Shown here: in pieces, positions 9,295 to 56,599 of the stretch
How positions within the stretch are numbered: position 1 is the first letter of the stretch
Layout of the letters: each line of letters starts with the position of its first letter
Notes under the pieces: model-generated
Databases searched by the model: none
Seen by the model: the letters and a program-made list of their open reading frames with translations, nothing else
Told to the model about the DNA's origin: nothing
DNA from: a virus
Length of the DNA: 64,000 nucleotides
IMG/VR virus record: IMGVR_UViG_3300042519_004024
Coordinates: 124,001-188,000 of that record
Direction: 5' to 3' (one strand)
Position numbers and translations under genes: made by a program

Positions 9295-9504
9295 TTATGT
9301 ACAATTTACTAATTCAAAATACTCACATCCTGTTGAATCGATAGTTTTAACCATTAATGTATTCGCACTTGAATAGAAGGGGTTAAGTGTATAAGTTCCT
9401 CCCGTTGTACTTATTAGATAACAGTTATTTCCATATTCATCACATAGATAAATACTTAATGGTGGTGTTCCACCTGTTGTTCCTGATATAGTAATAACAC
9501 TCAT
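9295..9504 (-). CDS. Very small SprB-like domain protein
   Basis: A 69-residue single-domain protein: TISGTTGGTPPLSIYLCDEYGNNC at the start and MVKTIDSTGCEYFELVNC at the end. It is essentially one SprB-like repeat without the C-terminal FMDG tail of its two longer paralogues. Its ATG overlaps the stop of the 825-residue SprB-repeat gene by one base (TAATG), implying translational coupling, and it ends 1 bp before the next start. It may be a detached repeat from the large upstream protein. No enzymatic motif. Confidence 0.65.
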   Translation of the reverse strand: MSVITISGTTGGTPPLSIYLCDEYGNNCYLISTTGGTYTLNPFYSSANTLMVKTIDSTGCEYFELVNCT

Positions 9505-11981
9505 TATTGATAAACTAATATGAATCCATCTTCAGTCATCATAAAATAACTGTCTTCGGTTAATATTATAAATGTGTCTCCACAGTCATCTTGACAAGTC
9601 ACGTCATAATCAATTTTTAATCTTAGGTTAAAAATACAATCAGCCAATGGATCTTCATCACCATTACATTTAGAAACAATTTCAAGAGTGTTTGTCAATA
9701 AATCAACAGTATAACTTTGTATGTTTGGTATACTACTTAAAATACCTTCGATTGTTGATTGCCAAAGGGTGTCTTGTGGAATATCATTTAACGTAGTTGC
9801 AGTATAGAAAGGCACAGTGTATGTAGTATCACCGGATTGACAATCGGCGTACACTAAGAAATCACCATTTTCTGTTGTAATCGTAAATACGTCTTCAGTT
9901 AAAATAAAACACGTATCTCCCGATCCAGGACAATCGATTTCTATTTCACAACTAAACACCGCACCACTAAAACTACAACCTGAGTATCCCGAAATGATAT
10001 CAACATATCCTTCATTTAACATCTCTGAAAGTCCTCTTTTTGTCCCAACAGTTGTGGTAAAAGTACTATTACAAACATTAAATAGTTGGTAGGATGTTGG
10101 TGCGATTCCGTTACATATTATTGTAAAATATTGTATATCGTAACAACCGTTACTATCTGTTATTTCGACATAATAATTACCAGCAGATAATCCCGTAACT
10201 GTTGAACCTGTTTGTCCATTACTCCAATTATATGTGAATGTAGGTTCTCCCTGATATATAACAACCTCGGCAAATCCATCATTACCGTTTACACAATCAA
10301 CTTTTTGTATTGATGTAACTAATTGTCCGCTAGTTGTTATTGTAAATCCTGTCGATACTGCACATCCGACACTATCTGTAACCGTTATTGTATAGTTACC
10401 AGGTAATAAGTTATTATATGTTACTGCAGTTGTTGTTGTATCAATTAAAGTGTCACCATTACTTAACACATAATCTAATACACCACTATAACCACTATAC
10501 ACCTCAATATATGCAACTCCGTTTGAAACCCCACAAGTTGATCCGGTAGTTGTTGCACTTACCGTAAATTTTTGAGTAGAATTTATATTTATTGTTGTTG
10601 TATATTCACAGGCAGTTCCTGAACCTGAAATCGTTAAAACATAAGTATCATTTTGTAAATTTGTAAAATTATTAGTCTGATTTAAACTAGTGTTTTGAAT
10701 AACTTGATTTGAATTTTGTCCCGATAGTGTATAAGTATAGTATCCACCCAAACCAGCAATCTGTACGTCAATCTCACCATTATTTTGATTACAGTCTGAG
10801 TTGGTGACAATTATGTCGACTACATTAAATCCTCCTACGGGACTTAGAAACCCGCTTAATGTTGTTTCACAAAAATTAGCATCTCTTACAACTACTTGGT
10901 AGGTTCCTGCAGCTAAATTTGTTAATGTAAACGTGTTTGAAAGTGTGTATCCAACCTGCGCAGTTGATGCGGAATAATAAAAAGGTGCGGTTCCTCCTGT
11001 TAAAATATATGTTAAACTACCATCCGAAGCAAAACAAGAAGGTGTGGACGCACTTAATAATCCAATCCCTAATGGTGCCGCGTTTCCAACATATTCACTT
11101 TTTGTTAGTTCACATCCATTCGCATCAGTCACAGTACAAGTATATACTCCTTGTGTTAGTCCTGTTATTAATTGTGTTGTTTCACCATTACTCCATAAAT
11201 ACGTATAAGGCCCCGTACCCGTTAAACCTGTTACCGCTAACTTACCTTTATCAATAACACAATTTGAGGTGTTAACAACCCAAAACCCATAATCTAAAGA
11301 AGTACTTGCAGATATTATAGCATTTTCAGTGTTAGCAGTGGTACCACCTGAATCAAAAACAGTAGCATAATAAATACCACTAGGTAAACCGTTAAAATCG
11401 TATGGTAAAGTTCCTGTTGTTTCTACATCGTAAGGAACACCGTCTTGATAAAGAAGAATAGTGTATGGTGCACCTGAAGATGTTGCACTTATAGTCAAAA
11501 ATCCTGTATCTTGACCACAAGTAGTGCCCGATGCAGTAACCACATTCGCCTCAAAACATCCTGTTACATTAACATTAATATATAATTCATTATTTTGTAA
11601 ATTAAGAGTATCATTTAATCTGAACACATAAGTACCACCCGTTAATCCTGTAAATGTTATAGGTGAACTACTTGTTTGAGCGGTTAAAGTTCCCGGAATA
11701 ATATTATCAATTGTGTATGGTGCAACACCACCATATGAAGTGAAAGTTACACTACCTGTTGCTGCGGAGCAAACCCCCGTAACTTGGAATCCGTAACTAA
11801 GTGGTCCTGATGTACATGTTTGAGTACAAGTCACCCCTGTAGCAATATAAACTCCTCTTGCCGAACCGGAAAATGATTCATCTATACATATACTTTCACC
11901 AAGTGAAACACCGAATTGGTATAATCCACAACAATCAATATATTCATAAACACCATCGGTTAAACCTGATATACAAGCCAT
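9504..11981 (-). CDS. SprB-repeat tail protein
   Basis: An 825-residue protein consisting largely of about seven repeats of roughly 80 residues. Each has the pattern C-x5-G-x-(L/I/V)-x-(V/I) ... G-x-x-P(Y/F)-x-Y ... (T/N)GL-x-x-G-x-Y-x-(V/C)-x-(V/I)-x-D-x-x-GC. The clearest copies contain GPYTYLWSNGETTQ with CTVTDANGCE, and FTYNWSNGQTG with YYVEITDSNGCYD. This is the SprB repeat, characteristic of gliding and cell-surface adhesins of Bacteroidota. The C-terminal 150 residues carry two copies of a FILTEDxF ... GDFLVY-like unit. Together with the downstream small SprB-like genes this suggests a host-derived adhesion module recruited to the tail. Virion location is inferred from context. Confidence 0.8.
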   Translation of the reverse strand: MACISGLTDGVYEYIDCCGLYQFGVSLGESICIDESFSGSARGVYIATGVTCTQTCTSGPLSYGFQVTGVCSAATGSVTFTSYGGVAPYTIDNIIPGTLTAQTSSSPITFTGLTGGTYVFRLNDTLNLQNNELYINVNVTGCFEANVVTASGTTCGQDTGFLTISATSSGAPYTILLYQDGVPYDVETTGTLPYDFNGLPSGIYYATVFDSGGTTANTENAIISASTSLDYGFWVVNTSNCVIDKGKLAVTGLTGTGPYTYLWSNGETTQLITGLTQGVYTCTVTDANGCELTKSEYVGNAAPLGIGLLSASTPSCFASDGSLTYILTGGTAPFYYSASTAQVGYTLSNTFTLTNLAAGTYQVVVRDANFCETTLSGFLSPVGGFNVVDIIVTNSDCNQNNGEIDVQIAGLGGYYTYTLSGQNSNQVIQNTSLNQTNNFTNLQNDTYVLTISGSGTACEYTTTININSTQKFTVSATTTGSTCGVSNGVAYIEVYSGYSGVLDYVLSNGDTLIDTTTTAVTYNNLLPGNYTITVTDSVGCAVSTGFTITTSGQLVTSIQKVDCVNGNDGFAEVVIYQGEPTFTYNWSNGQTGSTVTGLSAGNYYVEITDSNGCYDIQYFTIICNGIAPTSYQLFNVCNSTFTTTVGTKRGLSEMLNEGYVDIISGYSGCSFSGAVFSCEIEIDCPGSGDTCFILTEDVFTITTENGDFLVYADCQSGDTTYTVPFYTATTLNDIPQDTLWQSTIEGILSSIPNIQSYTVDLLTNTLEIVSKCNGDEDPLADCIFNLRLKIDYDVTCQDDCGDTFIILTEDSYFMMTEDGFILVYQ

Positions 11982-27391: not shown

Positions 27392-29251
27392 TTAAACGAT
27401 TTCACATGCGCCACCCGCACACGCAGCTTCTCCTCGTAGATCGGTGTTATCTTGTAACTCAATTACTTTTGTAAGATTAACATCTGATAATGTTTTAACC
27501 AATCTTTCAAAATCTTCTTTTGTACAATCTTCAAAAGGGGCTTGTGTGTAAGTTCCTCCGTTGTAAGGTAGTACTGACAAACCGTTATAGAAATCTCTAT
27601 TGTTCCACATCCAATCACCAACTAAACTCCACTCGTCTTCTTTAATTGATACTGTAGCAGATACGTTGTGTGTGTTTTGTCCGTTTCTATGTCCAGGTTT
27701 AATCCATTCTTGAGATACTTTCTTAACTCTTTCCAACATTTGGAACACTGATTCATGTCTTACGATTGAACCTTCAGGTGCTCTTTGTGGGATAGTAATT
27801 ACCGCAGTATCGTGAGGACGGAAAAACTCATCTTCAATCAACTCAGGATGATTAATCGCCAAGTATGAATAGATTGATTCGTTTTTACCAACACGGATTC
27901 TTCTTAGGTAATAATCATTATGCCATGCGTGGATTCCTGATGATGTACCCAATACCAATGATGAGGTACCTGATGGTTTAACTGTTGTTGTTCTTGCGGA
28001 TTTGTTGATTCCAATAAGACCAGCAACTCTTTCGTTTTCTTCTTTAACCATCTTAGCCGCTTTTTTCATATCATAACCCAACACAACACCTGAACCAATT
28101 CCTGTCATACCTACACCGATAAGTGCATCTTTTTCAGTTGTTCTTTTCCAAATATCTCTTAAATAATGGAAGTCTGTGTATCCTGCCTGTAGTGTACCAA
28201 TGAACGATGCCGCCCTAACTCTTGCATCAAAGTCTTCTTGTGATTCAATATCTGAAGCGTTAACCTCACATAAGTTACAGAATTGGAATGGACGAAGTGC
28301 GATTTCACAACAAGGGTTTGTTCCCCAATCTTTATCGTTAGATAAGTAGATTCCAGGTTCACCTGCGCCTGACAACTCAATACGTTTCCACAAATCCATA
28401 AAAAATTCTTTTGTGATTTTGTGACGAAGAAGAACCGCCGAGTTATTTGCTCTACCTCTTTGTGCGTTTTGTTCCCACCAACTTCCTGATTTACAAGAAA
28501 TCATTTCTTCATCATCTGCCGAAAATAATGAGATAAGAGCCGCACGTCTGATACCACCCGCTAGTACTGCATCCGCAATATGACATACGATATCGTGAGT
28601 TTCAATTGGTGTTAGTTTTTCTCCATCTTTTTTGTTATCCAATACTTTTGTAATGTTATGGATACAATCTTTTAATGGTTGAGGGCCCGGAGCCTTTCCC
28701 CCTGATGTTACAAGCATCGCACCTTTTTGTCTAATATCTGAAAAGTCGAATATAGGTGTTGATGACTTATAACCTAAATATGATTCCATTAATACTTTAA
28801 TGGCATCTGCCCACCCTTCAATAGAATCACCAATAAGGTATCTTCTTGTTCTTTCAGGATTTGGTTTTTTAATATCTGGTAGTTTTTCAACGTGGTGTTT
28901 TTGAACTGAGTAACCAACTCCTGTTCCACCTAAAAGTAAAAACATTGTTTCAGAAAACGAGTCAACGTGATCGATTGGCATATATGCACAATTATAAACT
29001 CTGTTTGGTGAGATTTCAATTGGCTTTCCACCAAATTGTAAAGATCTCATAGATGGTAAAACTTTCTTGTCGTACACCATTTTATATACCTCTTCAATCT
29101 CATCTTTGATGTGTGGGTACTTTCTTTGGTGCATCTCTTTGTTACGTGTTACCAACTCTTCCCAAGTCTCTCTCCGATTCTTTTCGGGTTGAAACTTAGC
29201 GTATTTCATAAAGACAGTAATGTCACTTAATATTTTTTGCGAAATATCCAT
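27392..29251 (-). CDS. nrdJ: Adenosylcobalamin-dependent (class II) ribonucleotide reductase
   Basis: A 619-residue single-chain reductase that makes deoxyribonucleotides for phage DNA synthesis. Residues visible: C88 in VYNCAYMP and C314/E316 in TNPCCEIAL (the second redox Cys of the pair may lie at 314/88; C314 corresponds to the radical-bearing Cys with E316 as its catalytic partner). GGTGVGYSVQ (108-117) and the barrel segment KPSGTSSLVLG are also present. The C-terminus CAGGACEIV has the Cys pair C611/C616 that re-reduces the active site, as in the monomeric Lactobacillus leichmannii enzyme (CEGGAC). No separate NrdB-type subunit is present, consistent with class II. Use of B12 needs cofactor from the host; no cobalamin riboswitch is visible upstream. 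Confidence 0.92.
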   Translation of the reverse strand: MDISQKILSDITVFMKYAKFQPEKNRRETWEELVTRNKEMHQRKYPHIKDEIEEVYKMVYDKKVLPSMRSLQFGGKPIEISPNRVYNCAYMPIDHVDSFSETMFLLLGGTGVGYSVQKHHVEKLPDIKKPNPERTRRYLIGDSIEGWADAIKVLMESYLGYKSSTPIFDFSDIRQKGAMLVTSGGKAPGPQPLKDCIHNITKVLDNKKDGEKLTPIETHDIVCHIADAVLAGGIRRAALISLFSADDEEMISCKSGSWWEQNAQRGRANNSAVLLRHKITKEFFMDLWKRIELSGAGEPGIYLSNDKDWGTNPCCEIALRPFQFCNLCEVNASDIESQEDFDARVRAASFIGTLQAGYTDFHYLRDIWKRTTEKDALIGVGMTGIGSGVVLGYDMKKAAKMVKEENERVAGLIGINKSARTTTVKPSGTSSLVLGTSSGIHAWHNDYYLRRIRVGKNESIYSYLAINHPELIEDEFFRPHDTAVITIPQRAPEGSIVRHESVFQMLERVKKVSQEWIKPGHRNGQNTHNVSATVSIKEDEWSLVGDWMWNNRDFYNGLSVLPYNGGTYTQAPFEDCTKEDFERLVKTLSDVNLTKVIELQDNTDLRGEAACAGGACEIV

Positions 29252-35142: not shown

Positions 35143-38100
35143 TTAATTAGGATTAAGTACAAAATATTCGTAATATTCTGTAAAAACAACAACGTAATCA
35201 TTATAAGTATTGATAACACCACTACTTACATTATTAACAACTTCATTTTTAATTTCTTCTGCAGTTAGTGGTGGCGGTCCAAAAGCCACAGGAGTGTCCC
35301 AAGTAGTTAAATACAATTGTGATAACGCTTTACCATATTGTTTATATTCATTTGTATCGGGGTTTATAGTTTTTAGTGATTCTATAAGTGGTACCATAGA
35401 TTGATAGAATGATACCATAAAACTACTAGATGTAGTATTTTCAGTAAAACTAGCAAATACTCTGGATGTTCCAGCAACATCAACACATGTTTGTTCTTTT
35501 AGGTAAGTGTCCAAACTTCCATTGTGTTTAGTCTCTGTTGATATCTCGTAAAAATTATTATTAATACTATTCAATTCTGTTGTTACCGGATCGTAAGAAT
35601 TTAATGGTCTTGTTAACGCAATACCTAAAAGTAATGTCCTTAATCTACTATCATTTGTTACTGATTTTATTATTGGTATAATTTCCTCTAAAGAGAATGG
35701 TGTTCGTTTAACTTCAACAAATGGTAATGTTGTGTATTTAGTTATTTCTCTACACTTATCTAAACCTGTTTTTGTTACCGTTATTGTTGGGTCAGTATTA
35801 ACAAGTGTTTCTTTTTTTATTTCCTCATCAGTTTTTGTTTTCTTAATTTTTTCTTTATATGATTGTAGAATTTTTTGATTTACATTAATCAACAAATTAT
35901 CAACATTTGGTAAACTATATTTTGGGATTCTTGTTCCTTTAAATTTAGTGGTAAATCCGTTTTCTGAAATGTTATGATCAACTTCATAAATCCAATATGG
36001 ACCATAAAATAATGGTACGTGCCTTAAAACAAAATACATTGTTGGTTGTATCATAGCATTACCCATAGACTCGACCCCACAACTATAAGACCTAGATTTA
36101 TAAATACTATACATCGATACTGATTGTTGGGCAACTTTATCTCCAGACACCGAACCACCAATATCCGCAAACACTTTAAAAGACTCTGAAGTATTTTTCA
36201 TTTCAGACATATCTAAATCTAAATTTTTAAACATGTTCTGATTTTGTATACCAAAATCAACACTAAACCCAACTACTTTGTTTGTTTTAGAGTAATCCCT
36301 ATTAGGGTCAGAAATTCTTAATGGGTTGTCAGGCATTCTTAAATCAAAACTATCATCATCAAATCTAATAAAAGAGTTTTCTTTTGGTTTTGGGTATTCT
36401 GAAGGATTACCCATGTAAAGACATAAAAACTTAGGACTTGATTTTGTATAATCCACTTCTAGATATGTTCCAAACATTGAGTTGGGTATTTCAATATCTA
36501 TTGGTTGTCCGTTTTTAACTGCCGATTGTATACCATAAAAATTTATATATGCAGGCATTGGGAAAAACATAAACTGATTATCACCTAATATGTTGCTAAC
36601 TAATGTCATCAAATTCATATCAGGGTTGTTTGTTGTGTCCATTCTTTTTATAACTTTATCTATGTCAACAACGTATGTATCACCAATATCACTATTAGCC
36701 CTATCCATAAATAAAAAGTCTTCAAACAAGGTTACATATTTTAAATCAGACCCTGCAATCCATTTATCATTAAACGCCTTTAATGTATTATAAAGGGTTA
36801 ATTTACCAACATCTCCAGTTACGGCATTTGTTGTATTATTATTTACAGTAATATTACTTAAGTTTTTATTTAAATTTAAAAAAGTTTGGTTTAATATTTT
36901 TTCTTGTATTGATTTTTGATCAGTTAAATACTGATTTATTAATGTTGTAAACGTTTGTTTATTTAAATTAGAATCTTCTAATTTTTTCTGCGAATATAAT
37001 CTTATTAATGGGTACGTCAGTATTATATTGTCAGATGTAAATTCAATATCATTATCAATAAAAAAATCTGCAACCGTCGATTTTGGTGTTCCCGGTAATG
37101 GTATAGTTGTTTGTGGTTGGGTTACAGGTAATTGTTGTTGTACTGTTTGTGTTTGTTGTGGTTGTGGTTGTTGTAAACAATTTGAAGTTAATATCTCATT
37201 AGTAACACAAACAACCGCAGCATTAGGTTCACCAACATAATTATCATCATCAAAATCTAACGTATATGTTTTAATCGCATTTGCAGATTGATTTTGATTA
37301 ACAGGATTAAAAGTTGAGGTATTTGCAATTTTTCTTGCACAAAACTGTACTCCGTTAGGAATATTAAATTCTTCAACTTCAAGATAGTAAACTTCTCCTT
37401 CTAAATATGTTGTACCTGTACCTACAACGTTTGAAATAACATTATTTGGTATTACAACATTGAATATTTCATTTGAATTGCAACAACTTTGAAAAGTATA
37501 ATGTGTTGATGGTGGTATAGTTACATTTGTAGTGGATGTAGGTGGTACCACAGTTGTTGCCAAAGGTGTAGCCGTTGGCGGTGTTGATGGGAATACGGGA
37601 CTTGGTTGCCCTGGATAGTCAACTCCGGCAATCGATGAAAACCCTAAATATGTTCTTAATGTATTCCAAGCATCTTGGTTTTGAGTAACACTTTGTAGTA
37701 ACGTAACATTTGTACCGTCACCAGGTAATGTTCCTTTTACGTATGGTTTAAATTCGTATTTATCAAATTCAGGGACAAACTCTTTAAGATTAGAAAACGA
37801 ATTAAATAACCTTCTGTCAAAATTTCCTGGATTTCCTAATTTTAAAACACAATCAAAATTTAAAAATTCTTTTAAAGATGAGGTAAATGTTAATATCTGT
37901 TTTTGTCCTAATGTTTTACCATCAACGTCCTCGTTAACAAAAGTAATACCTGTTTTATTAACTAAAAATAAATTAAGTATTTGACTGTATAATCTTTTTT
38001 GTGCGGAATTCGCAATTTTATTACTTGACGTATAAGATGGATCAATTATCTCGTCTTTTAAAATTAAATTTTTAGAAAGTGGCTTATAATTACAAAACCC

Positions 38101-41100
38101 AATAAATTGTTCTTCAAACTTATCAAGGATTTCCGGTGTAAAAATTGCAAATATTTCTTCAATAGAAGAATACTCGGATTGTGCGGATTTTAAATCAAAA
38201 GGCGTTTGTTCGTCAGTATTTAATTTTATAGCCTTTAAATACTGTGTAGGTGCCGGTTTTACTATTAATGAATTATCAAAATATCCAAAATGCGATGATG
38301 CCCATAAACTTCTTACAGAACCATTGTAAACTGATTTATTATTAAATAATTCTTTTGTTAATATGTTATTTGGATTAACAGATTCATATATTGACTGATC
38401 TATTGGGATACCCCCCATAGATGGGAACAACATCATAAATTGTTGTGTTGTTGCACTTAATTCCGCATAACTATAGTAGTTTGTTTTTTGTAAAGATCTA
38501 TTTGGGTTTGATGTATCAAATCCAAAGTTTAGATAAGTGTTTGATTGATTATTTTTACCTAACCTAAAATTATTTTGATTATATATGTTTTGAAAATTAG
38601 TTGTCGTATAACCAGTTAATAAATCTTTACCTTCAATAAAATTATAAACCGCATTAATTACTTTAGGGTAAAATCCCGTACCTATATAGTCTTTAGATTG
38701 TAATGAAGGTAATGGGAAATTTTCAGTTTTTTGTAAAAGTACAGTTTGATTGTTACCACTATAATCAGGAATTATGTATTGTAATGTGGATGCTGAAGTT
38801 GCCGGATCATACGCACCAATATAGTCAAAATTTTTCCAAACAGAATCTAAAATATCAACCCCATCATTTACAAATTTTTTATATCTATACCAAATAGAAC
38901 CATATTTTAATACCCAAGCATATGGTACTTGATGTATTGATGAATATTTTTTTAGTGTGGACGCCAAATAATCTAAATCAGTATATGAACCATTATCAAT
39001 AGATTTAATTTTTTCTTTTGTTGTGATTAATGGTAATGAATTTAAATATAAGTAACCTAAAGTGGTAAATGCATTATCTGTGTTTGTTTTATTATCCTCA
39101 ACACCTTTAATAAGTGCATTTACAAAATATGGTGTGTTTAATAATGAAGTTGTCTGTATTTGTGTACCAACATTACCAGAATATGAATTACCGTAATTGA
39201 TATAACTTTCTGTTGGGTAAAAATCTTTTATTTTTCTATCTTGATAGAAACTCTTAAGTATTAATTGATTGTTTATTGGTGCATTTAACGTTGATACGTA
39301 AGGTTGGTTTGCGGTTTCTAAAATCCTAAAATCACTTAAAAGAGATAACTTTTGGTATTTTTCAGTTTCATTTATTCTTGCAATAGTTTTTTTATCATCT
39401 AAATAAATAAAGGTTTTTGTTGTATCGTTGAATTGTTCTAAACTACTAACAGTATTACCGTTAGATGTGTTACCACTAATCCAATTTATATCAGTAAAAG
39501 GGTATGTATCTAAAAAATTCATTTTAGATGATTCGGTACTCTCTAAATATTCTTTTAGATTATTTGCCAATTCTAAATCAGAAGATATTTTAATGGATCT
39601 ATTAGAAATTGTATCAATACTATATATGTCGTTAGTAGTTTTTAATAAATTATCAATATATTCTGTCTTATATTTACTTCTAATATATGTTTGCCAACTT
39701 TCACCATTCCCGTCGTTTGATATTTTTTTAAGGTATGCGATAAAACTATTATAATCAAACTTATAATTTTTTAATATTTGGTTTAGTTCTATACTATTAC
39801 CTACTGAGTTTTCAATATTTTTACTTTCAATATTACCATAAAACTTATCTATTTGTTTTTTTGATATTTCATCATTAATAAATTTAGTATAAAATGACGA
39901 TAGGTATGTTCTTTCAAATAATTCATAAAAAAATGGTATAGCCCCTAAATCTTGATACGGAGTTGTTTTAAATGGAAATTCTATAGCATTTGCCGAAACA
40001 TATTTACTATAATCGGAAGGATTATTATAAACATTAGAACTAACCGGTTTTGACGTTTCAGTAGTACCTTTTAAGTATGCCTCAACAAATCCTATTTCAG
40101 GCCATAATCTATAATCATACCCTTTTGTTTGTTGTATTACTTTAGCATCACCAGGATATTGTATAGTATAAACTTCTCTACCGTCTTTTTGTTTTTCTTT
40201 AACAAAATATAACGGCCAAGGGTAAACCACATTATCTTTATTTAATTCACCGCTAGATGTTTGCAAAGTTCTCAAGGCATCCACTGAAAAGTTTTTTTCG
40301 GGTGGTATTACCGCAAGTAGTCTTGATGGGTCATTCCTAACGTCCCACGCCGATTCGTGAACTTCTTCCATTAACCTATAAAATGCATCTGCACCTGCAA
40401 AAATAATTGCAAAAACATTCCTTATTGTTGGTTTAAACCCTAACCCACCTTCACTTGGATTTTTTAAAGCCCTGTCCGCCAATACTTGAGATAAAATGTT
40501 TTCTATCTCTTCTTCATTAGTTTGTAGTGATTTTTCAGCATCGTCTATATCATCCAAAAAACTATTTGGTACATAAGTTGAGTCTGCAACAATTTTATCA
40601 CCAAAAACAAAATAGGTTACATTATCTTCAACCCACTCACCTTTTTCATTTAAAACCTTTTCTTTTAGTAGTTTATTTTTATCTTCATCTAATTTGAATT
40701 TTTCAAATTCCTTTATTCCATTTTCAGTAGATAAGTCTACAGGTTTGTTAAACCTATAAAAAAAAGTATTTTTTAAATCTTCATCATTATTAATCCAAGA
40801 CTCAAAATCTAATTTTTTTAACACATCACTTTTATCTTTTATTTTTAATGGTATTTCTCTTTTACCTCCTTTACCAAAAGTTGCGTTATCGTTTAATTTT
40901 TTAATGTAATATGTTATTCTTTCATTAATTTTTGTTTTGTAGTCTTCTTTTGTCTGATCTTGTATATCTTTTTTAAATGGATAATAAATTAATTTTTGAT
41001 TTCCACTTACATAAAAACTACTTTTATCTAAAAACTTATCTAATGAATTAGTGTACACACTTTTTCTTAACCCCGCTAATGAATCTCTATAATCTTGTAT

Positions 41101-42105
41101 ATCATTTAGTTGGGTGAAGTCCCCCTTTTTTTCTGCGTCTTTTTGTAGTTTAGAAGTATATCCATCTACTCTTTGTTTAAATTCGTCTATTGATAATTGT
41201 GGGAAATTTTGTGGTATTAACCCTTTTCTTTTATATATCTCATAAACCTCATCTAATTTTTGTCTGCCCTTATATGTGTTTATTGTTTGTACAGTACTGT
41301 TATTATTATTCTTATAGGTTATTTCAGTGTTATACATTTTAGGTGCCGTAACAGCATATTGTAAAGGAGTATCAAATAAAAGTGCCGTAAATTTACCGAC
41401 AAGTTTTAAACTTATATCATAATTTCCTGTGTTAGCATCAAATCTAGCATTAAAAGATAATAAAGACAAACGATATCTAATCGCCTTCCCGTAATAACCT
41501 TTTAATGTTAAATAAAATAAAGGGTATGGAAAATTAAAAAATGCAGAGTATATTGAATTTTCCCCCTGTTCAAATAAAGCCCTCCCTTGAATATCAGTCA
41601 TTTCAATATTAACTTCAGGTACTCCAGTTCCTTTTATATTAACTCTTATTGACTTAATACCTAACATTTGGGTATCTTCGTACTTAGCGACAGAGTTTTT
41701 AAATCTAGGTTTACCGTCTATTGTTACTATTTCTTCGGTTTTTTGATTTGCACCTTTACCTAATCTTGATTCAAACCCCGTTAGTTGATCCGACCAACTC
41801 GTATCAAATGCGGTTTTACCTTTTGGCTTTAAAAAGTTAATTTTTAAATCTTCTTCACCACCAAAAACAGTCGCTATGGTGGTATTGACAACGGGAGAGT
41901 CAAAAGTCTCACCAATAGCCAATTTTGTTCTTGGTATAATAAATGTTTCTAAATTTGCATAATAAACCAAGTCTTCGTGATCTACAAGTCTTGGTGCTCG
42001 TAAATTATTTGCGTCGTAAATCTCATTAGGGTTTACAACGATAATGTTATCATACTCAGTTTCGACGTATATTTTTTTTGTTTGTTTTAATCTCTTATCT
42101 GCCAT
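35143..42105 (-). CDS. Giant baseplate protein (about 2320 residues), probable hub-related
   Basis: The frame is open upstream to 42156, but I chose ATG at 42105 (MADKRLKQTKKIYVETEYDN) because it gives an 11-bp overlap with the gp53-like gene rather than a 62-bp one. The product is about 2320 residues. The N-terminal 280 residues are beta-rich (VNIEMTDIQGRALFE, LTLKGYYGKAIRYRLSLLSF). Around residues 1500-1560 there is a Pro/Thr linker (TPPTATPLATTVVPPTSTT) with a small Cys-containing domain beyond it, and a second linker rich in Gln/Pro. Near residue 2010 the segment FYGPYWIYEVDHNISENGF and TTKFKGTR resembles the closing strands of tail-hub (gp27/gpD-like) domains. Size, context and these marks suggest a hub- or wedge-associated baseplate protein; the exact T4 counterpart is not clear. 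Confidence 0.6.
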   Translation of the reverse strand: MADKRLKQTKKIYVETEYDNIIVVNPNEIYDANNLRAPRLVDHEDLVYYANLETFIIPRTKLAIGETFDSPVVNTTIATVFGGEEDLKINFLKPKGKTAFDTSWSDQLTGFESRLGKGANQKTEEIVTIDGKPRFKNSVAKYEDTQMLGIKSIRVNIKGTGVPEVNIEMTDIQGRALFEQGENSIYSAFFNFPYPLFYLTLKGYYGKAIRYRLSLLSFNARFDANTGNYDISLKLVGKFTALLFDTPLQYAVTAPKMYNTEITYKNNNNSTVQTINTYKGRQKLDEVYEIYKRKGLIPQNFPQLSIDEFKQRVDGYTSKLQKDAEKKGDFTQLNDIQDYRDSLAGLRKSVYTNSLDKFLDKSSFYVSGNQKLIYYPFKKDIQDQTKEDYKTKINERITYYIKKLNDNATFGKGGKREIPLKIKDKSDVLKKLDFESWINNDEDLKNTFFYRFNKPVDLSTENGIKEFEKFKLDEDKNKLLKEKVLNEKGEWVEDNVTYFVFGDKIVADSTYVPNSFLDDIDDAEKSLQTNEEEIENILSQVLADRALKNPSEGGLGFKPTIRNVFAIIFAGADAFYRLMEEVHESAWDVRNDPSRLLAVIPPEKNFSVDALRTLQTSSGELNKDNVVYPWPLYFVKEKQKDGREVYTIQYPGDAKVIQQTKGYDYRLWPEIGFVEAYLKGTTETSKPVSSNVYNNPSDYSKYVSANAIEFPFKTTPYQDLGAIPFFYELFERTYLSSFYTKFINDEISKKQIDKFYGNIESKNIENSVGNSIELNQILKNYKFDYNSFIAYLKKISNDGNGESWQTYIRSKYKTEYIDNLLKTTNDIYSIDTISNRSIKISSDLELANNLKEYLESTESSKMNFLDTYPFTDINWISGNTSNGNTVSSLEQFNDTTKTFIYLDDKKTIARINETEKYQKLSLLSDFRILETANQPYVSTLNAPINNQLILKSFYQDRKIKDFYPTESYINYGNSYSGNVGTQIQTTSLLNTPYFVNALIKGVEDNKTNTDNAFTTLGYLYLNSLPLITTKEKIKSIDNGSYTDLDYLASTLKKYSSIHQVPYAWVLKYGSIWYRYKKFVNDGVDILDSVWKNFDYIGAYDPATSASTLQYIIPDYSGNNQTVLLQKTENFPLPSLQSKDYIGTGFYPKVINAVYNFIEGKDLLTGYTTTNFQNIYNQNNFRLGKNNQSNTYLNFGFDTSNPNRSLQKTNYYSYAELSATTQQFMMLFPSMGGIPIDQSIYESVNPNNILTKELFNNKSVYNGSVRSLWASSHFGYFDNSLIVKPAPTQYLKAIKLNTDEQTPFDLKSAQSEYSSIEEIFAIFTPEILDKFEEQFIGFCNYKPLSKNLILKDEIIDPSYTSSNKIANSAQKRLYSQILNLFLVNKTGITFVNEDVDGKTLGQKQILTFTSSLKEFLNFDCVLKLGNPGNFDRRLFNSFSNLKEFVPEFDKYEFKPYVKGTLPGDGTNVTLLQSVTQNQDAWNTLRTYLGFSSIAGVDYPGQPSPVFPSTPPTATPLATTVVPPTSTTNVTIPPSTHYTFQSCCNSNEIFNVVIPNNVISNVVGTGTTYLEGEVYYLEVEEFNIPNGVQFCARKIANTSTFNPVNQNQSANAIKTYTLDFDDDNYVGEPNAAVVCVTNEILTSNCLQQPQPQQTQTVQQQLPVTQPQTTIPLPGTPKSTVADFFIDNDIEFTSDNIILTYPLIRLYSQKKLEDSNLNKQTFTTLINQYLTDQKSIQEKILNQTFLNLNKNLSNITVNNNTTNAVTGDVGKLTLYNTLKAFNDKWIAGSDLKYVTLFEDFLFMDRANSDIGDTYVVDIDKVIKRMDTTNNPDMNLMTLVSNILGDNQFMFFPMPAYINFYGIQSAVKNGQPIDIEIPNSMFGTYLEVDYTKSSPKFLCLYMGNPSEYPKPKENSFIRFDDDSFDLRMPDNPLRISDPNRDYSKTNKVVGFSVDFGIQNQNMFKNLDLDMSEMKNTSESFKVFADIGGSVSGDKVAQQSVSMYSIYKSRSYSCGVESMGNAMIQPTMYFVLRHVPLFYGPYWIYEVDHNISENGFTTKFKGTRIPKYSLPNVDNLLINVNQKILQSYKEKIKKTKTDEEIKKETLVNTDPTITVTKTGLDKCREITKYTTLPFVEVKRTPFSLEEIIPIIKSVTNDSRLRTLLLGIALTRPLNSYDPVTTELNSINNNFYEISTETKHNGSLDTYLKEQTCVDVAGTSRVFASFTENTTSSSFMVSFYQSMVPLIESLKTINPDTNEYKQYGKALSQLYLTTWDTPVAFGPPPLTAEEIKNEVVNNVSSGVINTYNDYVVVFTEYYEYFVLNPN

Positions 42106-42412
42106 AATAAAAAATATGTGTATCCAATGCAGATTTGTAGTCTTGCAGTGCCGCAACTAGCGGAAAAGGTATAACTAATATTGTTCCATCAGGTATATTT
42201 GTTTCCAAACCACCATAAAGCGGATTTGCCATCATAATTAACCAACCAAAATAAGGTGCTCCGTATTTTTCATAACTTATCTTATCCAATCTACTTTGAT
42301 TTTTTCTATACACATATCTTTGATCCGAAGACCTTAGTGGTAAGTTTAAGAATGGTACTACCGTTTGTTTACCATTTATTAAAAAGTTTTGGTATCTATC
42401 GTAATATTGCAT
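42095..42412 (-). CDS. 53: Baseplate wedge protein, gp53-like with LysM-type domain
   Basis: A 105-residue protein (T4 gp53 is 196). Residues about 35-85 hold a LysM-like unit: SRLDKISYEKYGAPYFGWLIMMANP, quoted here as RLDKISYEKYG and YFGWLIMMANP, then IPDGTILVIPFP. This is the pattern of tail-associated LysM proteins, in which the fold acts as a structural connector rather than binding peptidoglycan. T4 gp53 clamps the wedge ring. It begins 2 bp after the stop of the 2129-residue gene and its end overlaps the start of the next gene. Confidence 0.75.
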   Translation of the reverse strand: MQYYDRYQNFLINGKQTVVPFLNLPLRSSDQRYVYRKNQSRLDKISYEKYGAPYFGWLIMMANPLYGGLETNIPDGTILVIPFPLVAALQDYKSALDTHIFYYGR

Positions 42413-42414
42413 TA

Positions 42415-45400
42415 TTAATTAAATGTTTTTTTCAAATTAAATTTATTCCATCCTGAATTTTGATCTGACCACAGTTCTTTTAAGTTGTTATCATTTGGTG
42501 GTATGATTGGACTTTGTGTTTCATAATTAAGTATTCTAGTTTTACTTTTATTATATGGATTATATGTGTTATATTTGTTTTTATAAAAATTGTCATTAAA
42601 ACTTTTAAATCTATCATCCACAATTTTCTTTGATTTGTTATAACTATCTACTAACCCTTCGTCTTTTACATAGAACGATTCGCCAAAATAAAATTTCCAA
42701 TTTTCTTTAACTTGTGTATCTTCATTTTTTAATGCCTCGTCAACAATGCTATTACTAAACCCTTCGGCATCAATCGCAATATCTTTACCAAATAACATGA
42801 AAAATCTATTTTCGGCGGGTGATGTAAGTGAAGGGTCACTTTCAATGTATGTATTAAACACAAATTGATCGTTATACTCATCTGTAGTTCCTGAGGCTAT
42901 TATTTTATCTTGATAAAGTTTATCATAATATTCATTTAAGTCTGAACGTACTTTAAGAAAGTCTTGTACTAATTCTGAATATGTATCCGTTACACCAACA
43001 CTTGATGGGTCAACCCCAGTCCCTCCGCTTAAACTATATATAACGACATCACCATTTTTAGCGATGTAACCATCATTTTTACTTGTTACAAAATTTAACT
43101 TATCTATTGTAAAAATTAATTTAAGTTCTTCGTTTGCAATAGTTGAGTTACAATTTTCAAGTAACGCTAACATGTCGTTACCTTTTTTTTCAATTAAATC
43201 TTTAATTCGTTTTTTAATTTTTCTAATGTTTGCGTCCGTAAAATTTTGGTATTGTACTTCAGGTAATAATGGACAACTCCCGTCGTCAACATCTTTTTTC
43301 GCCTTTTCTACTAACAATTTAATTTTATCTTGTATCGTATCTGTCTTACCGTAAATGTTAGCATTATTAGATGTGTTACCGGTTAAGTAATCAAATAAAC
43401 CTTCAGTATATTTTCTATCTTTAGTAGACATTAAAAGTCCCCCTAATAAGAAATTGTCGTTTATTTTTTGTAAATTACTTATAACGGTATCCGCATATGA
43501 TTTTGTACCATCAGCCAATGTTTTCATTATTTCTTCATATGAAATAGTACCATAAGCCTTTTGAGTATTTAAATCATAACTATTAGTTTTTATAAGCCCT
43601 ATAGTATCTCCAGCATCATTTGTTCTTTGTTTATTTGGATCGTCTTGTATACCAAGTTGGTTTTTAATGTCCGCTAAAATTTCTGCATCGTACTGTGATG
43701 TAACATCTTCAGTTACATCTGCCCTTTCATCATACATTTCAGTATTTGCATAAAAATTAAATGAAAGCGCATTTTGTAATTTAGCAACAGGTCCCGCTAA
43801 TCCATGTCCACCAATAAAATTAAATGAAATACTTACATCAGCAATCATTGGTTGAACTCCAATACCTTCAGGGTTAAGGTCAAACCTACCATCTTCGTAT
43901 TTTATACTTAAAGAATCAATTACTATTTTTGTATGGAAAAAGTCACCGATTCTTAAAACACAAACAGGTGGTGCACCAAATACACTATTTGTTACATCAT
44001 TATACACTAACGTAAAGTTTTCCCCATCTTTAGAAACCGTAGGTATTGTATCGCCCGGACGCATACATTGTTGTAAAAACGTTAGTCTAGAATTTAAACC
44101 TTCAGGTGTTATAGAGTGGAAAACAGGATGAAAATGTTTTAATTTACTTTTTAACCCGTCGTATATCATAGGGTCACTTTGTTTAACTAATTCAAAATAG
44201 TTACATTCTGTTAATAATTTTCTTGCAAGTCTTTTTGTTAAATCTGATCTCACTACTGTGGTTTTTTTAACTATAGGGTCTTGTTTTTGTCTTATTGTTG
44301 TATAACCAGCGGGATCAGCTTTAATTGTTTCACCATTAGCTGTGGTTGTTGTTTCACTTCCTGGGTTTTCTTCAGGTTCTGTAAACGTTCTACCCTCTAA
44401 TGGTTGTGATTCCTCACTACTTGGTGGCGGGGTGTCTATAGTTTCTGCAGGAGGAGCTTCGTGTTTAACGTCTAAAATTCTTACTCTTCTACAAGCCATA
44501 GCATTAACCGACACAGTTCCCTCATTACTATTACTCTTATACTCTTTATTACAATTAATAAATTTATATTTTGGATCCAAAATACTTGTAGTTTCACCTT
44601 TAGGTTCTTGTTTTACTAATAAATTTTTATTATATTCATTTTTTAATTTTACGCCGTCGTACTCAAAATTTAAAATATATTGTAGAGCAGCATCAATTCT
44701 TCTTTTTGAAAGGGTGACGTTATACGCATCATCAGTAACTGCAGAAGCTGAAGATAATAGTGTGAATGATATTTTACCTCCCTGTTTTATTGCAATACAA
44801 ACTTGGGTTAAAAATGTTTTTATTTCTTCAAATTCAGATTTTATATAATTAAAAAATTCAGATATTGATTCATCTCTTGTGTCAATATAAGAATCTAAAT
44901 ATTTTTCTTTTAGCTCATCACTACCCGATAAAATAAAATTAGTATAGTCAACATATGTTCCGTCACCATATTTTATAATTTTATCTCTAGCACCTCCAAA
45001 GTTTCTTGTTCCGTCACTACCACCTGTTGTTAAATATTTTTCTTCTAAAGCTAAATAATCTGCCAACCATTTTTCATAAGATTTTGACGCATAAATTCTA
45101 GTCGTGTTAGGATCTGGAAAGTCATTATGGAAAAAGAATAACGGTTCTTTAAAATTATAATCCTCAACTTCCGGTGGTTCAGTAAACACTTTTCCTCCTG
45201 TACCTGTAGGTGTTGGTGTGGGTGTTGGTGATGTCGTTGGTGGTAGTGTTACCGGTGGAATAGTATCTTCATCAATAAAATTGTCTACAACCTCGTTAGG
45301 TAAATTCTCAACAACAGTCACCACATCTTCAGGATATATTATTTCTTCCATTACTTGGAACACGTCGTTTGGTGTAAACATTGGGTATTTTTTTACCAAA

Positions 45401-48400
45401 TCATATAAATCGTACTTGGTACATCCAGCAAAAAACGAATCTAAAACTTTAGTTATTTGTGAGTCGGGTGTTGCGTTTTCTAACTCCCTATCTAAAATAA
45501 CGTTCATTATTGACGGGTGATCAACAACTATTTTAAAACTTACGTTACCTTTTCTACTTGTATTGTTATATGTATAAATTGGTTCAGGTCTACCTAAAAA
45601 TGTATTATCTGTCCAATTGGTGTTAATGGATTCGTCAAAAGTTAAATCATATGGTGGAAACCACATTATTCTACCTCCATTAGGTCCTCTTTCACAATCA
45701 GGCAAATCTTCATAAGTATAACCAGGCCTATTAGATGTTCTCCATGATAAATTCTCTAAAGAGAACATATACTTTTTTACTTTTCCGTTTTGGATATTTG
45801 TTGATCCAGGATTTTGCCAAGGAGCAATATTCAAATTGTATGTGTTATCTAAAATTGAATTTGTGTATTTTCTAATATTACCGTCGGTTTTTTGTAATTC
45901 ATCAAATGAATAATATGGTCTATCTTTTGTGAAAACCCTACAGTACTCATATCCTGTTGGTGTTGCGGTTCTTTCTCCTTCAGGTAAAGATGTTTTTGTT
46001 GTATATCTAACAACTCTTGAACCTTTTGTTAATTCAATATATCCGTCATTAAAAACTTTAGACACTTGATTAATGGCGTTACCAACATGTTGTAATTTAT
46101 TATTAGAACGGTTACCGGCATCAATTAATTTTTGAGTTACGTCTAAAATTGAATTTTCAGTAAATTCATAATTAGTCGACTTTGTTGGGTCATATGTAGA
46201 ACTAAGATTTGAAAAATTAAATTCACTGTTGTCTTGAAATATCGATGCTCCTGGACCAGCAAAATCCCCCGGTATCATCCAATTTTGTCCACCTTTACCT
46301 GCCTTAGATAACCATGTGAATCCCGCTTGTACACCATTTAAACCATCAAAATATGATCTACTATTTAGCCCTGTGTATAAATTACTAATTTTAGTTCCTT
46401 CATATTCTTCACCAATTTTACCATAAGAAAAAACGGGACTTCTATCTGTTGCAACGCCTTTTATTTTACTTTCAGGTAATTCACCATCAGGTGAGACTAT
46501 TTCTGTGATTGATGATTTTCTATTTCCAATATAATATTTACCTTGTGGTGCTAATAAATTATTACCTATCTTATAATCAGGCCTAAAGTTATTAAGCCTT
46601 AACTGATCATATAATAAATCTCTTGTTGCTATAGATGTGTACTCAACAAATAATTCAGATGCAGTTTGGTTTTTAGGTTGTAACATTCTAAATACCCCTC
46701 CAATAGCACCACCAATAGCAGACAATGGATTATTAAATATTGCGGAACCTTTTTTATCGGGATAATCAAAATACTCACCAGGAATATATGAATATGGTGA
46801 GTATGTTCCTGCAAGTTTAGCGGCAAAATTAATTGCCTGCCCTAAAAATAAATCAGGATTTGTAATTGAATAATTTCTAGCAATGATTGGTACTTGTCCT
46901 GATAATAATCCTATCGCATTAAATGGGTCTAAATTTGGTTCTGCAGATATTTCTCCCGTATCAGGATTAACATTAGAATTTAAAATATTAACTCTACCTA
47001 ATGTTTGTTGTAGTAATTCTAAAGCAACTCTATGTTTAAATTCTTTTTGTAATTGTTTTGCTGCTAAATTAGCAAGAGAAGAATCTTGAGATAAAGTACC
47101 GTCTGAACCTGATGGGTCATTACTTAATAATATACTAACAGGACTATATGATGATGGTAAAAATATAAATGTATTGTCAGAATTAGCGTAAGGTAACCCT
47201 GTATTTGGTATTTCTAAATCGTCAATAGTTACAAGTTCAGGGTCACCATAAGTACCACTTCCTGTAACGTACTTATTTATTACATAAGCATCGTTTTCTT
47301 TTATTTCACTAATATTTTCTAAAGGACTATTAATACTATCAGGGTACCCATACTCACCTTCATTAGAATTTGTTTGTAAATTTTGGTTAATGTTTACCGA
47401 CCCGTTTACTATGTTTTGAGGACCATATTGATTAATAGCAATTAATAATGGTCTGTCATTAACACCTTCAGTATATAAATCACTATTAACTGTGTCAGCA
47501 TATGTATATTCACCTTCGTTTGAACCTATAGTTAAAATATTATTTATATCGTATCTCGGTTCACCGTATTGTACACTATTTTCAGGTGTATATTTATTTT
47601 TTGTTATTAGTTGTATTTCTTGGGAATTACCTATTTGGTATAGGAAACTATTCAAGGTGTCTCCAATATCATATAACCCACTACCATTTGTTTGTAGTGT
47701 TTGATCGTTGTTAATATACCAAACAGTGTTACCATAATCTAAAGGTGATCCAGGTTTGTATACGTTTCTTACTTTGTGTACAATTTCTTGATTATTACCT
47801 ATTTGGAATAAATTACTATTAAGTGTATCTCCAATATCATAAATCCCACTACCGTTAGTTTGTATTGTTTGATCATTGTTAATATACCAAACAGTGTTAC
47901 CATAATCTTGTGGGGATGCTGGTTTATAAATGTTTCTTACTTTATGTACAATTTCTTGACTATTACCTATTTGAAATAAAAAGCTGTTAAGGGTATCATC
48001 TATACCATAGATTCCTCCCCCCATACTTTGTATGTTTTGATCATTATTAATATACCAAACAGTGTTACCGTAATCTTCAGGTGTCGTTGGTTTGTATAAA
48101 TTTCTTACTTTATGGTAAACTTCTTGTGTATTTCCAATCTGATATAAGTAACTATTTAAAGTGTCGGTAATGGTATATTCACCATCACCCATAGTTAAAA
48201 TATTTTGATCGTTATTAATATACCAAACAGTACTACCAAAATCGCCTAACCCAAAAGGTTTATAAACGTTTCTTACTTTATGTATGACTTCTTGATCATC
48301 ACCTATCGTTTCTAATTTACTACCAATAGTTAATGGGTAACCATAATTACCTAAATTAGCATTACTAAGTAATGTATTATTAATTGTAACCGTTTCACCA

Positions 48401-53383: not shown

Positions 53384-56300
53384 TTATACATCATCAAAAG
53401 ATGCTCCTGTTGGTGTAATAACGAATTCGATATCAATGTATTCTAATGCTCTTGTAGGTTTTAAGAAAATTTTACCTGTTAAAGTATTTGAATCCAAATC
53501 TTCAGGAGTGTTTGATACTGTCACACGGAAATCTATCAAACCTCTATCTCTTCTGATTCCATCTAATATTGGGTTAACTGAATCCAAGAAGTCTTGTCTT
53601 ACTTTGTTATCGTTTTGTTCGAATAGTAATCTAATAGCCACTGCTGAAATCAACTTACGTGCTTGTAGTAACAATCTTCTAACGTTAATTCTATCAAGTG
53701 CAGACTCTCTAATTTGTAAAGTTTTGTTACCCCAAATCACTGTACCAACATCAGAGAAAGTTGCGATTGGGTTAATTCTACCTTTATAAAGTGTGTCTCT
53801 ATCGTCTTGTGTCAATTTACGTCTTGCTCTAATTGCGTTTACCAAACCTCTTGTGTAACCTGCAGATGCGAACCAAGGGAATGCGATATTGTCTGTCAAA
53901 GCTAAGTTCTTAACAACTTCAGAAGTTGGTGGAATGTATATTTGTGTATTGTTAACCGAATCTCTTGTTAAAATCCAAGGGTAATAAGTGGCGGTATAGT
54001 TAGAGTCTATTCCTGTTGCTTCTAAGTTATCTACCGTCTGTTGAGGGAAAATTAACCCTTCCTCAATATCGTTATATGTTGGTAAAAACAAATCAAAGTC
54101 AGGTGTAGTACAGATATAAATAGAGTCCGCTCTATCAGTTTCAATCATATCAATAGCGTCCTCAACAAGATTTGAGTTATTAACATAATCAATACCAGGT
54201 GTTGCAAATACATTTATGTTTGTTGCTTCAGGGTTAGCAAAAGTACTTTGTCCCCATTTGTATGCGTAAAAGTCAGTATTTGCCCAATTTTCTTGGTTTG
54301 GTCCTGAAATCGCTTTAAATGCTCCCCAACCCGTTGCGGTAGGATAAGTTATACTTGCTTCTGCACCATATTTAAATCCTGTTTGTCCTAATGCGAATGA
54401 ATCTGAATTTGTTCTATATTCTCTATATATGTCCCATCCATCAAAACCACCATAAGCCATTACCGTAAATTTACGAGTATTAAGTCTATAATATGGACTT
54501 GAACTATCTGTAGGTTCAGAGTTAAATGACCCGGCACCTACTTCAAACGCCGACTGTCCTGATGTTACATAACCATTTGCGATTGTTACAACAGTTGCTC
54601 CGCTATCCATGTGGAAACCTTTTGTTAAATAACCCCAAGCCATACCTGTGGTATCAGTACCTAAATTTGCAGGTAACTGCTTTCCTTTGTATTCAAAGAA
54701 ATCGTAATCAATTCCTGATATATTAGAAATACCTAAGTATGCCTTTCTTGGATTTTCACCACTTGAAATAACAGGGTTGTCACCTCCGTTAGATGAACCA
54801 AAAGGTGGGTTATACACAACGTCACCAGGTTTGAAATATTTAGTTTTATATACTAAGAATGGTGGTGTTGCATTTGCGTATTCTCTTGAGATAAATCCTT
54901 CAAAACCACAAGGTAGTGCGTCTATCGGGGCTTCATCACTCATTTCTAACATTACGTATTTAGACTTAACTTGGTATTCTCCGTTTGATGTTCCTATCTT
55001 ATTTGCTACGTAATTATTTTGACTTGGGTCTAATGAACAATTAGTGAAACTTTCAATAACTCTTGGGTTTTGATCGGTATCATAAAAATCTCTAATAAAT
55101 ACGTCAAACGTACTACTATTAAATGATATATTACCTATAGACATTTTTACAAGTCTATTAGCTGCGTTACCGTCAGAAATTAAAACAAACTTAAATAATT
55201 TATAAACTTTATTACCTCTAAGTTCTGAAACTAAATACGGTGTTTCAGGTGTTTGATATTGTTCTAAATAGAAACCTATTGAGTCGGTATCTAATGATCT
55301 CGCTCCTGGTAATTCGATAATATCACAGTCTAATCCTCTAATTCTACCTAATCTATATCCACTTGTTAACAAACTAGTATACGTCTCCTCGACAAATAAA
55401 GGAACCTCATTTCTGTCTTTACCAAAATTACTTCTACCAAATACTTTAGAAATAAAGTTCTTATCAGTAGATAACATTGATGTTTGGAATTCAAAATTGT
55501 CCCCGTCATAGGTTACCCCTGAAATAAGGAATGGTGAGTATGGGTTTTTAGTAACCGCAGAATAAGAACCTGTACAAATCATTTGTACATCAGTTGTACC
55601 CGTTACTTCATAATTCGGTCCTGCTTGTGTTGCACTGTAGTTAGATATACCTCTTGATCTTAAAGTTGCAACAACTAAATCATCATAATCTAAATAAGGC
55701 GTACCTGAATAGTTTGTGTTGTAAAAAACACAAGAACCTGAGAAATTACCTCCTGATCCCGATAGTGTGTTTACCGCGGCACCAAAACCTTGTCCGTAAT
55801 AACTACTTACATCGTTTACTTGTGAGTAATTAAACAATGCGTAATACCAAGCATCGTTAGTAGATGCTGATAAGTTAGCCAAAGATAGATTAACATTATT
55901 AACCCCAAAGTTTTCAGTGTATGCAGTAATAGTACCCGTACCATTAAGTGTTGTACCCGTTACTAAGTTAAATGTTCCTGCACTAACAGTACCCCAAAAG
56001 ACTGCCGATGAACCTGAAGAAGGTGAGCCAACGGCAAATAAATTTACTTGGTTTGATATATAAGTTCTTAAATCTTGATCAATAGTTGATGTACCACCAT
56101 TAAATTCAGTATATGTATTATAAAAATTATTATTTACATTAATAATACCAGGGACTGACATATTATATGCAATATTTGAACTTGTTCCTGTTGTTCCTGT
56201 AAATGTTAATACTGTGGATGATACTCCTGTTGCTGCGATTGTTGCCGGATTAACGTTACCTATTGTCGTTATTGACCAAGAAGGTCCTGCGTCATATCCT

Positions 56301-56599
56301 GATAAACCAAGAACTCTTGTAACAAATAATTGATTCGATTGTTGCAAATATGCCTTTGTAATATACGCTAATTCATATTTAGGTATTTGTGTATTAACAA
56401 ATTTTTCAGGACTAGTTCCTCCAAAATATACTTGGAACTCGTCAAAATTAGTTATGAATATTGGTTCAAACGCCGGACCCTGAAGAGTTTCTCCAGCCAA
56501 ACCTAAAGTTGTTACACCTACACTTTGTGCAACAAAAGTTAAATCTCTTTCTGACGTATAAACCCCAGGTGAAACGAAAACTTTGTTTGATGATGCCAT
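53384..56599 (-). CDS. 18: Tail sheath protein, gp18-like
   Basis: A 1071-residue sheath protein, about 400 residues longer than T4 gp18 (659). Family marks are the N-terminal VFVSPGVYTSERDLTFVAQS and the C-terminal domain with LTDNIAFPWFASAGYTRGLV, then KLTQDDRDTLYKGRINPIAT and FSDVGTVIWGNKTLQ, LDRINVRRLLLQARKLI. The extra length is in the middle: residues about 130-430 are Gly/Ser/Thr/Asn-rich beta sequence, likely added surface domains. It has an octamer 38 bp upstream and a hairpin downstream, consistent with strong expression. It contracts to drive the tube through the host envelope. Confidence 0.93.
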   Translation of the reverse strand: MASSNKVFVSPGVYTSERDLTFVAQSVGVTTLGLAGETLQGPAFEPIFITNFDEFQVYFGGTSPEKFVNTQIPKYELAYITKAYLQQSNQLFVTRVLGLSGYDAGPSWSITTIGNVNPATIAATGVSSTVLTFTGTTGTSSNIAYNMSVPGIINVNNNFYNTYTEFNGGTSTIDQDLRTYISNQVNLFAVGSPSSGSSAVFWGTVSAGTFNLVTGTTLNGTGTITAYTENFGVNNVNLSLANLSASTNDAWYYALFNYSQVNDVSSYYGQGFGAAVNTLSGSGGNFSGSCVFYNTNYSGTPYLDYDDLVVATLRSRGISNYSATQAGPNYEVTGTTDVQMICTGSYSAVTKNPYSPFLISGVTYDGDNFEFQTSMLSTDKNFISKVFGRSNFGKDRNEVPLFVEETYTSLLTSGYRLGRIRGLDCDIIELPGARSLDTDSIGFYLEQYQTPETPYLVSELRGNKVYKLFKFVLISDGNAANRLVKMSIGNISFNSSTFDVFIRDFYDTDQNPRVIESFTNCSLDPSQNNYVANKIGTSNGEYQVKSKYVMLEMSDEAPIDALPCGFEGFISREYANATPPFLVYKTKYFKPGDVVYNPPFGSSNGGDNPVISSGENPRKAYLGISNISGIDYDFFEYKGKQLPANLGTDTTGMAWGYLTKGFHMDSGATVVTIANGYVTSGQSAFEVGAGSFNSEPTDSSSPYYRLNTRKFTVMAYGGFDGWDIYREYRTNSDSFALGQTGFKYGAEASITYPTATGWGAFKAISGPNQENWANTDFYAYKWGQSTFANPEATNINVFATPGIDYVNNSNLVEDAIDMIETDRADSIYICTTPDFDLFLPTYNDIEEGLIFPQQTVDNLEATGIDSNYTATYYPWILTRDSVNNTQIYIPPTSEVVKNLALTDNIAFPWFASAGYTRGLVNAIRARRKLTQDDRDTLYKGRINPIATFSDVGTVIWGNKTLQIRESALDRINVRRLLLQARKLISAVAIRLLFEQNDNKVRQDFLDSVNPILDGIRRDRGLIDFRVTVSNTPEDLDSNTLTGKIFLKPTRALEYIDIEFVITPTGASFDDV

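Follow-up and report, generated by a model that had tools for sequence, protein, structure and literature searches.

A large uncultured phage encodes a 2129-residue baseplate protein in which a domain with the predicted fold of the OmpA/Pal/MotB family appears to interrupt the barrel of the tail tube initiator. Membership of residues 1218-1454 in this fold is established at the level of prediction, and there is good but not final evidence, from structural models, that the domain splits the tube initiator barrel of a contractile-tailed phage. The sequence comes from an IMG/VR virus record of 213,924 bp, of which a stretch of 64,000 nucleotides (here called the window) was analyzed. An initial annotation, made from the letters alone, had correctly placed an OmpA-like domain within a baseplate protein, but the insertion within the tube initiator barrel had been overlooked. 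The features are listed in Table 1.

Table 1. Features of the giant baseplate protein and the adjoining gene (positions in the window)
Feature	Residues	Positions	Strand	Basis or remarks
Giant baseplate protein, 2129 aa		42415..48804	-	ORF; N-terminal repeats, putative tube initiator barrel split by OmpA-like insert, C-terminal helical part
Tube initiator barrel (putative), first half	1006-1094	45523..45789	-	VIA alignments spanning model residues ~22-690
N-terminal flexible linker	1156-1213	45166..45339	-	pLDDT <50; ~16% mean pairwise identity
OmpA-like domain (predicted)	1218-1454	44443..45153	-	36-domain alignment, Pfam, PDB profile, AF2 pLDDT 92.8, Foldseek/VIA
β1 and end motif FFFHNDFP	1223-1230	45115..45138	-	Asn, Asp, and Pro invariant in 36-sequence alignment
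Enlarged β1-α1 connection	1229-1310	44875..45120	-	AF2 secondary structure and alignment
Ser1354, replacing DAP-binding Asp of TD-x7-N-x-x-LS-x-x-RA	1354	44743..44745	-	Ser 84, Asn 8, Leu 1, Asp 0 of 93
Asn1362, equivalent to TagL Asn494	1362	44719..44721	-	93/93; motif register from PMC8253398
Leu1365, equivalent to TagL Leu497	1365	44710..44712	-	Alignment of 36 domains and motif reading
Arg1369, equivalent to DAP-binding Arg (TagL Arg501, A. baumannii OmpA Arg286)	1369	44698..44700	-	93/93
Cys1418, first of invariant Cys pair	1418	44551..44553	-	93/93; also in four pocket-eroded members
Cys1438, second of Cys pair, right before last strand (CRRVRI)	1438	44491..44493	-	93/93 and four eroded members
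C-terminal flexible linker	1457-1519	44248..44436	-	pLDDT <50; ~16% mean pairwise identity
Tube initiator barrel (putative), second half	1590-1674	43783..44037	-	VIA alignments to tube initiators
gp53-like (LysM-type wedge) protein, adjoining gene		42095..42412	-	phrog_7145 baseplate wedge, E 8.4e-5; Pfam gp53, E 0.023, under its cut-off

Identification of an OmpA-like domain

The segment first singled out (positions 44455-45150) corresponds to residues 1219-1450 of the giant protein. When the window protein was searched by itself against Pfam, the OmpA family was matched at an E value of 0.16, which stays under the curated cut-off, and a lone-sequence match of this kind is too weak to establish an OmpA relationship. 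A scan of viral contigs yielded 61 loci, and 36 domains were taken into an alignment. PF00691 was matched by 34 of these 36 members at an E value of 1 or lower (best, 5.8e-7). The profile of all 36 retrieved OmpA-family chains from the PDB (best E value, 1.2e-5), among which OmpA, Pal, OprF, YfiB, and MotY dominated, and every chain at an E value below 0.05 was of the OmpA/Pal/MotY/YfiB type with the exception of one photosystem chain. The AlphaFold2 (AF2) model built from the 36-domain alignment (pLDDT, 92.8; pTM, 0.90) displayed the order β-α-β-α-β-α-β. Although its best Foldseek E value was just 1.6e-3, the list consisted almost entirely of OmpA-family chains, and VIA-align superimposed the model both on Pal (4pwt; Z = 9.4, rmsd 2.2, 108 residues) and on OmpA with a bound peptidoglycan peptide (3td5; Z = 9.2). 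Since the per-member Pfam matches, the PDB profile, and the AF2 model agree, the OmpA identity is far beyond chance once homologues are included, and the fold originally proposed was thus borne out by the profile and structure searches alike.

Along the sequence, the domain carries FFFHNDFP (β1), S-x7-N-x-x-L-S-K-R-R, GE, and AMACRRVRI; the last of these had initially been written as C-x-RRV, and the actual sequence is C-RRV. Compared with the C-terminal domains of the OmpA/Pal/MotB family (PF00691; A. baumannii OmpA 3TD5, Pal, PorE 6TOP, and TagL 7BBA), the phage domain has the same succession of strands and helices, the motif N-x-x-L-S-x-R-R including the Arg of the diaminopimelate (DAP) site, and RRV-x-I as its last strand. 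It differs from them in the replacement of Asp by Ser, Asn, or Leu, in an ~80-residue connection after β1, in an invariant pair of Cys residues, and in its location in a phage tail protein.

Three other matches were rejected. A single-sequence PDB match to OspA (E value, 8.6e-4) lay mainly over the inserted loop and was absent when profiles were used, a likeness of residues 12-81 of the segment to the FlgJ glucosaminidase (E value, 0.01) was present with 5 sequences and gone with 36, and a Pfam GH18 match (E value, 0.002) was confined to one member.

Position within a putative tube initiator

The gene for the giant protein sits between the tape measure, hub, tube, and sheath genes and a gp53-like gene, which is the position of a tube initiator gene, and the gene order matches that of Flavobacterium phage immuto. 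These neighbors point to a contractile tail, with the sheath, tube, hub, and tape measure encoded upstream, the gp53-like protein downstream, and a J-like wedge protein and gp25 farther on. Both flanks of the OmpA-like domain aligned as a single domain with tube initiator or baseplate tube chains, and the aligned ranges crossed the insert (VIA Z, 8.7 to 10.7). The chains were those of PVC (6j0n_b; Z = 10.7), AFP (6rao_G; 10.4), diffocin (8v3w_T; 10.4), A-1(L) (8kea_R; 9.3), pyocin R2 (6u5b_g; 9.1), and T4 (5iv5_BE; 8.7), and the barrel also aligned with such chains of the Streptomyces, Algoriphagus, and Anabaena injection systems and of Milano. Because profile-based comparison of the barrel sequence with the tail tube of this phage gave no signal, assignment as an initiator is based on structure and synteny. 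In the model of residues 985-1706, the OmpA-like domain had a pLDDT of ~90 and the linkers on both sides fell below 50, while the barrel strands were of moderate confidence and the pTM of the whole model was 0.41. Mean pairwise identity among relatives was 0.60 and 0.68 in the two flanks, 0.32 in the domain, and ~0.16 in the linkers.

Several other features of the tail region were recorded. The N-terminal part of the giant protein contains a tandem array (positions 47615-48243) with a period of 168 bp (56 aa) and ~3.7 copies, and the repeat content varies among relatives. A 2337-residue baseplate-region protein (35143-42156) had no Pfam or PHROG matches, and the tail sheath protein (53384-56599; 1071 aa) is covered by sheath families in its C-terminal part, with a long N-terminal part unmatched.

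Residues of the DAP pocket

In the published OmpA motif, TD(x)7NxxLSxxRA, the Asp, Asn, and Arg are the most critical residues (PMC5104382). TagL contacts DAP through Asp486, Asn494, Leu497, and Arg501, and in OmpA-family complexes DAP lies between the β1-α1 and β2-α2 loops (PMC8253398). Residues were counted in 93 distinct domains, a set that stands apart from four eroded members described below. The Asn and the Arg were found in each of the 93 domains and the canonical Asp in none. The Arg of LS-x-RR does occupy the DAP-binding position, as initially claimed, but of the Asp and Arg whose conservation among homologues was in question only the Arg is retained. A diverged loop insertion had also been proposed and was confirmed, in that the β1-α1 connection, the OmpA counterpart of which walls the DAP pocket, is ~80 residues long in the window protein and shorter in other relatives. 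The Asp of FHND was present in 71 sequences, all with the pocket Ser, and was missing from 8/8 sequences with the pocket Asn; this link could reflect either compensation or shared ancestry.

A precedent for the altered pocket is provided by domain 3 of Treponema pallidum Tp0624, which likewise has an OmpA-like fold with the Arg kept and the Asp lost, and which bound no DAP in crystals or by calorimetry (PMC5104382). Unlike the phage domain, it belongs to a bacterial protein, its Asp is replaced by Ala, and its Asn is also changed (E/Q).

Distribution among relatives

The second flank is encoded at at least 580 viral loci. Among 142 ORFs with the flanking barrel (a set that includes some contigs fetched twice), the domain was detected in 138; at the corresponding site of the remaining 4, an eroded version could be made out by reading. 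The latter, which were placed by reading and alignment, gave no profile match to the domain; most of the LSxRR motif was gone and both Cys residues were kept. In a tree of the flanks, the eroded members fell in both deep clades, a distribution that requires two to three changes and suggests that loss of the pocket probably occurred more than once, with the domain itself retained.

Of the cultured relatives that were found, the nearest were Flavobacterium phage immuto and Microcystis phage Mel-JY01, with syntenic proteins of 716 aa (QQO92153.1) and 2255 aa (WWT39329.1), respectively. Both proteins are encoded at the equivalent position and match the first half of the barrel by profile, and the Mel-JY01 protein also bears N-terminal repeats. 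In contrast to the window protein, neither has the OmpA insert, and the barrel halves, the second of which was recognized by reading only, are joined by a short connection. Neither the domain nor the giant protein was matched by tblastn in 50,697 phage records, and the single clear relative in BFVD was an uncultured Caudovirales protein. A pattern scan of bacterial genomes found no relative of the OmpA domain. The flanking tube initiator segment was found at 64% identity in a Holophagaceae MAG contig (JALRCU010000028.1), which is probably a phage contig in the bin, possibly mis-binned.

Possible roles of the domain

The LysM-bearing initiators (Mu gp43, Milano gp25, Anabaena Cis7, and AFP/PVC) likewise pair a barrel with an additional domain whose fold is of the peptidoglycan-binding type, but their LysM lies in a C-terminal or helix-rich domain, whereas here the OmpA domain is inserted within the barrel. 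The LysM module of Mu gp43 is considered a structural part of the initiator (PMC11915804), that of Anabaena Cis7 ties the tube to baseplate proteins (PMC8894136), and in Milano, AFP, and PVC it forms the domain at the C terminus of the central protein (PMC10811340). A literature search judged by titles, abstracts, and numbers of hits, as opposed to a full review, disclosed no contractile baseplate with an OmpA domain. The LysM cases suggest that peptidoglycan-binding folds have been recruited repeatedly at this location in the contractile tail, and OmpA, in the corresponding protein of a large uncultured group of phages, would be an unrelated fold of this kind. It thus becomes testable whether such domains are structural staples or contact the host wall during injection.

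By analogy, we favor the reading that a cell-wall-binding fold has been put to another use, docking within the baseplate, rather than gripping ordinary DAP-peptidoglycan, and we would put its chances at about even. The OmpA-fold domain, carried on two flexible linkers within the initiator barrel and presumably present in six copies around the base of the tube (a stoichiometry taken by analogy from Mu gp43), would hold the tube initiator to a neighboring wedge or hub protein through a remodeled pocket that would have changed its ligand. Such reuse would explain the loss of the Asp in 93/93 domains, the remodeled pocket wall, and the erosion of the pocket with the fold kept, as in the members of both deep clades that retain the Cys pair, and it has a precedent in the LysM of other initiators. 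Less easily reconciled with docking is the near invariance of the Asn, Leu, Ser, and Arg of the motif despite a mean domain identity of ~32%, which suggests that the pocket still binds something. Moreover, the adjoining gene already encodes a gp53/LysM-like protein, and the need for a second staple is not obvious; the moderate confidence of the barrel model also weighs against this reading.

Docking is favored over a grip on peptidoglycan, to which we assign a lower, though appreciable, probability. In contraction of the T4 type, the tube is expected to carry the initiator along as it enters the envelope. The domain would then enter the periplasm with the tube tip, bind the sacculus via the altered pocket, and anchor or steer the tube, with the lost Asp replaced by Ser or Asn or perhaps by the conserved FHND Asp of the adjacent β1-α1 loop. 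The invariance of the Asn, the Arg, and both Cys residues is consistent with such a role, as are the retention of three of the four TagL residues that contact DAP, the anchoring of machines to peptidoglycan by the OmpA-fold domains of TagL, PorE, and MotB (PMC8253398), and the reach given by the flexible linkers; the near-invariant motif argues for a ligand. The pairing of the FHND Asp with the pocket Ser (71/71) fits as well but is confounded by shared ancestry. Countering these points, the canonical Asp is present in no member, Tp0624 with the same loss failed to bind DAP, the pocket wall carries a large insertion, and most of the motif is gone in four members. Docking to peptidoglycan, as initially proposed, is therefore only partly supported: the invariant Asn and Arg speak for it, and the lost Asp and the Tp0624 precedent speak against it. 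A more specific form, in which the tethered OmpA-fold domains are a cell wall anchor built into the initiator and grip the sacculus through a rewired pocket in which the FHND loop now supplies the Asp, seems to us unlikely; a sacculus-gripping injection step for contractile tails was not described in the literature searched.

It is improbable that the tethered domain is a surface decoration or adhesin, extending beyond the baseplate to attach to a protein or glycan on the host surface ahead of contraction. The long linkers and the faster divergence of the domain (32% mean identity) relative to the flanking barrel (60 to 68%) would suit an adhesin, but the tube initiator is central in known baseplates and thus a poor site for a receptor binder, and the pocket motif, instead of being variable, hardly changes among relatives. 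Finally, a chance likeness of a helix-strand segment to OmpA without homology, which the weak single-sequence Pfam score would allow, is contradicted by the profile, the per-member Pfam matches, the AF2 fold, and the almost exclusively OmpA-family structural matches and is very improbable.

Host clues

An 825-residue protein encoded at positions 9504-11981 contains SprB repeats (Pfam E value, 2.6e-14), a gliding-adhesin repeat of Bacteroidota, and is a possible clue to the host. The tail sheath resembles that of a Flavobacterium phage, with its best match in Microcystis phage Mel-JY01, and the sole genome match was the Holophagaceae MAG contig. As clues to the host, the SprB repeats and Flavobacterium-like sheath, Mel-JY01, and the Holophagaceae MAG point in different directions. 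A ribonucleotide reductase (27392-29251) is 69% identical to that of Mel-JY01, its best match, and a similar ribonucleotide reductase protein is labeled "recombinase" in Vibrio and Oceanospirillum phage records.
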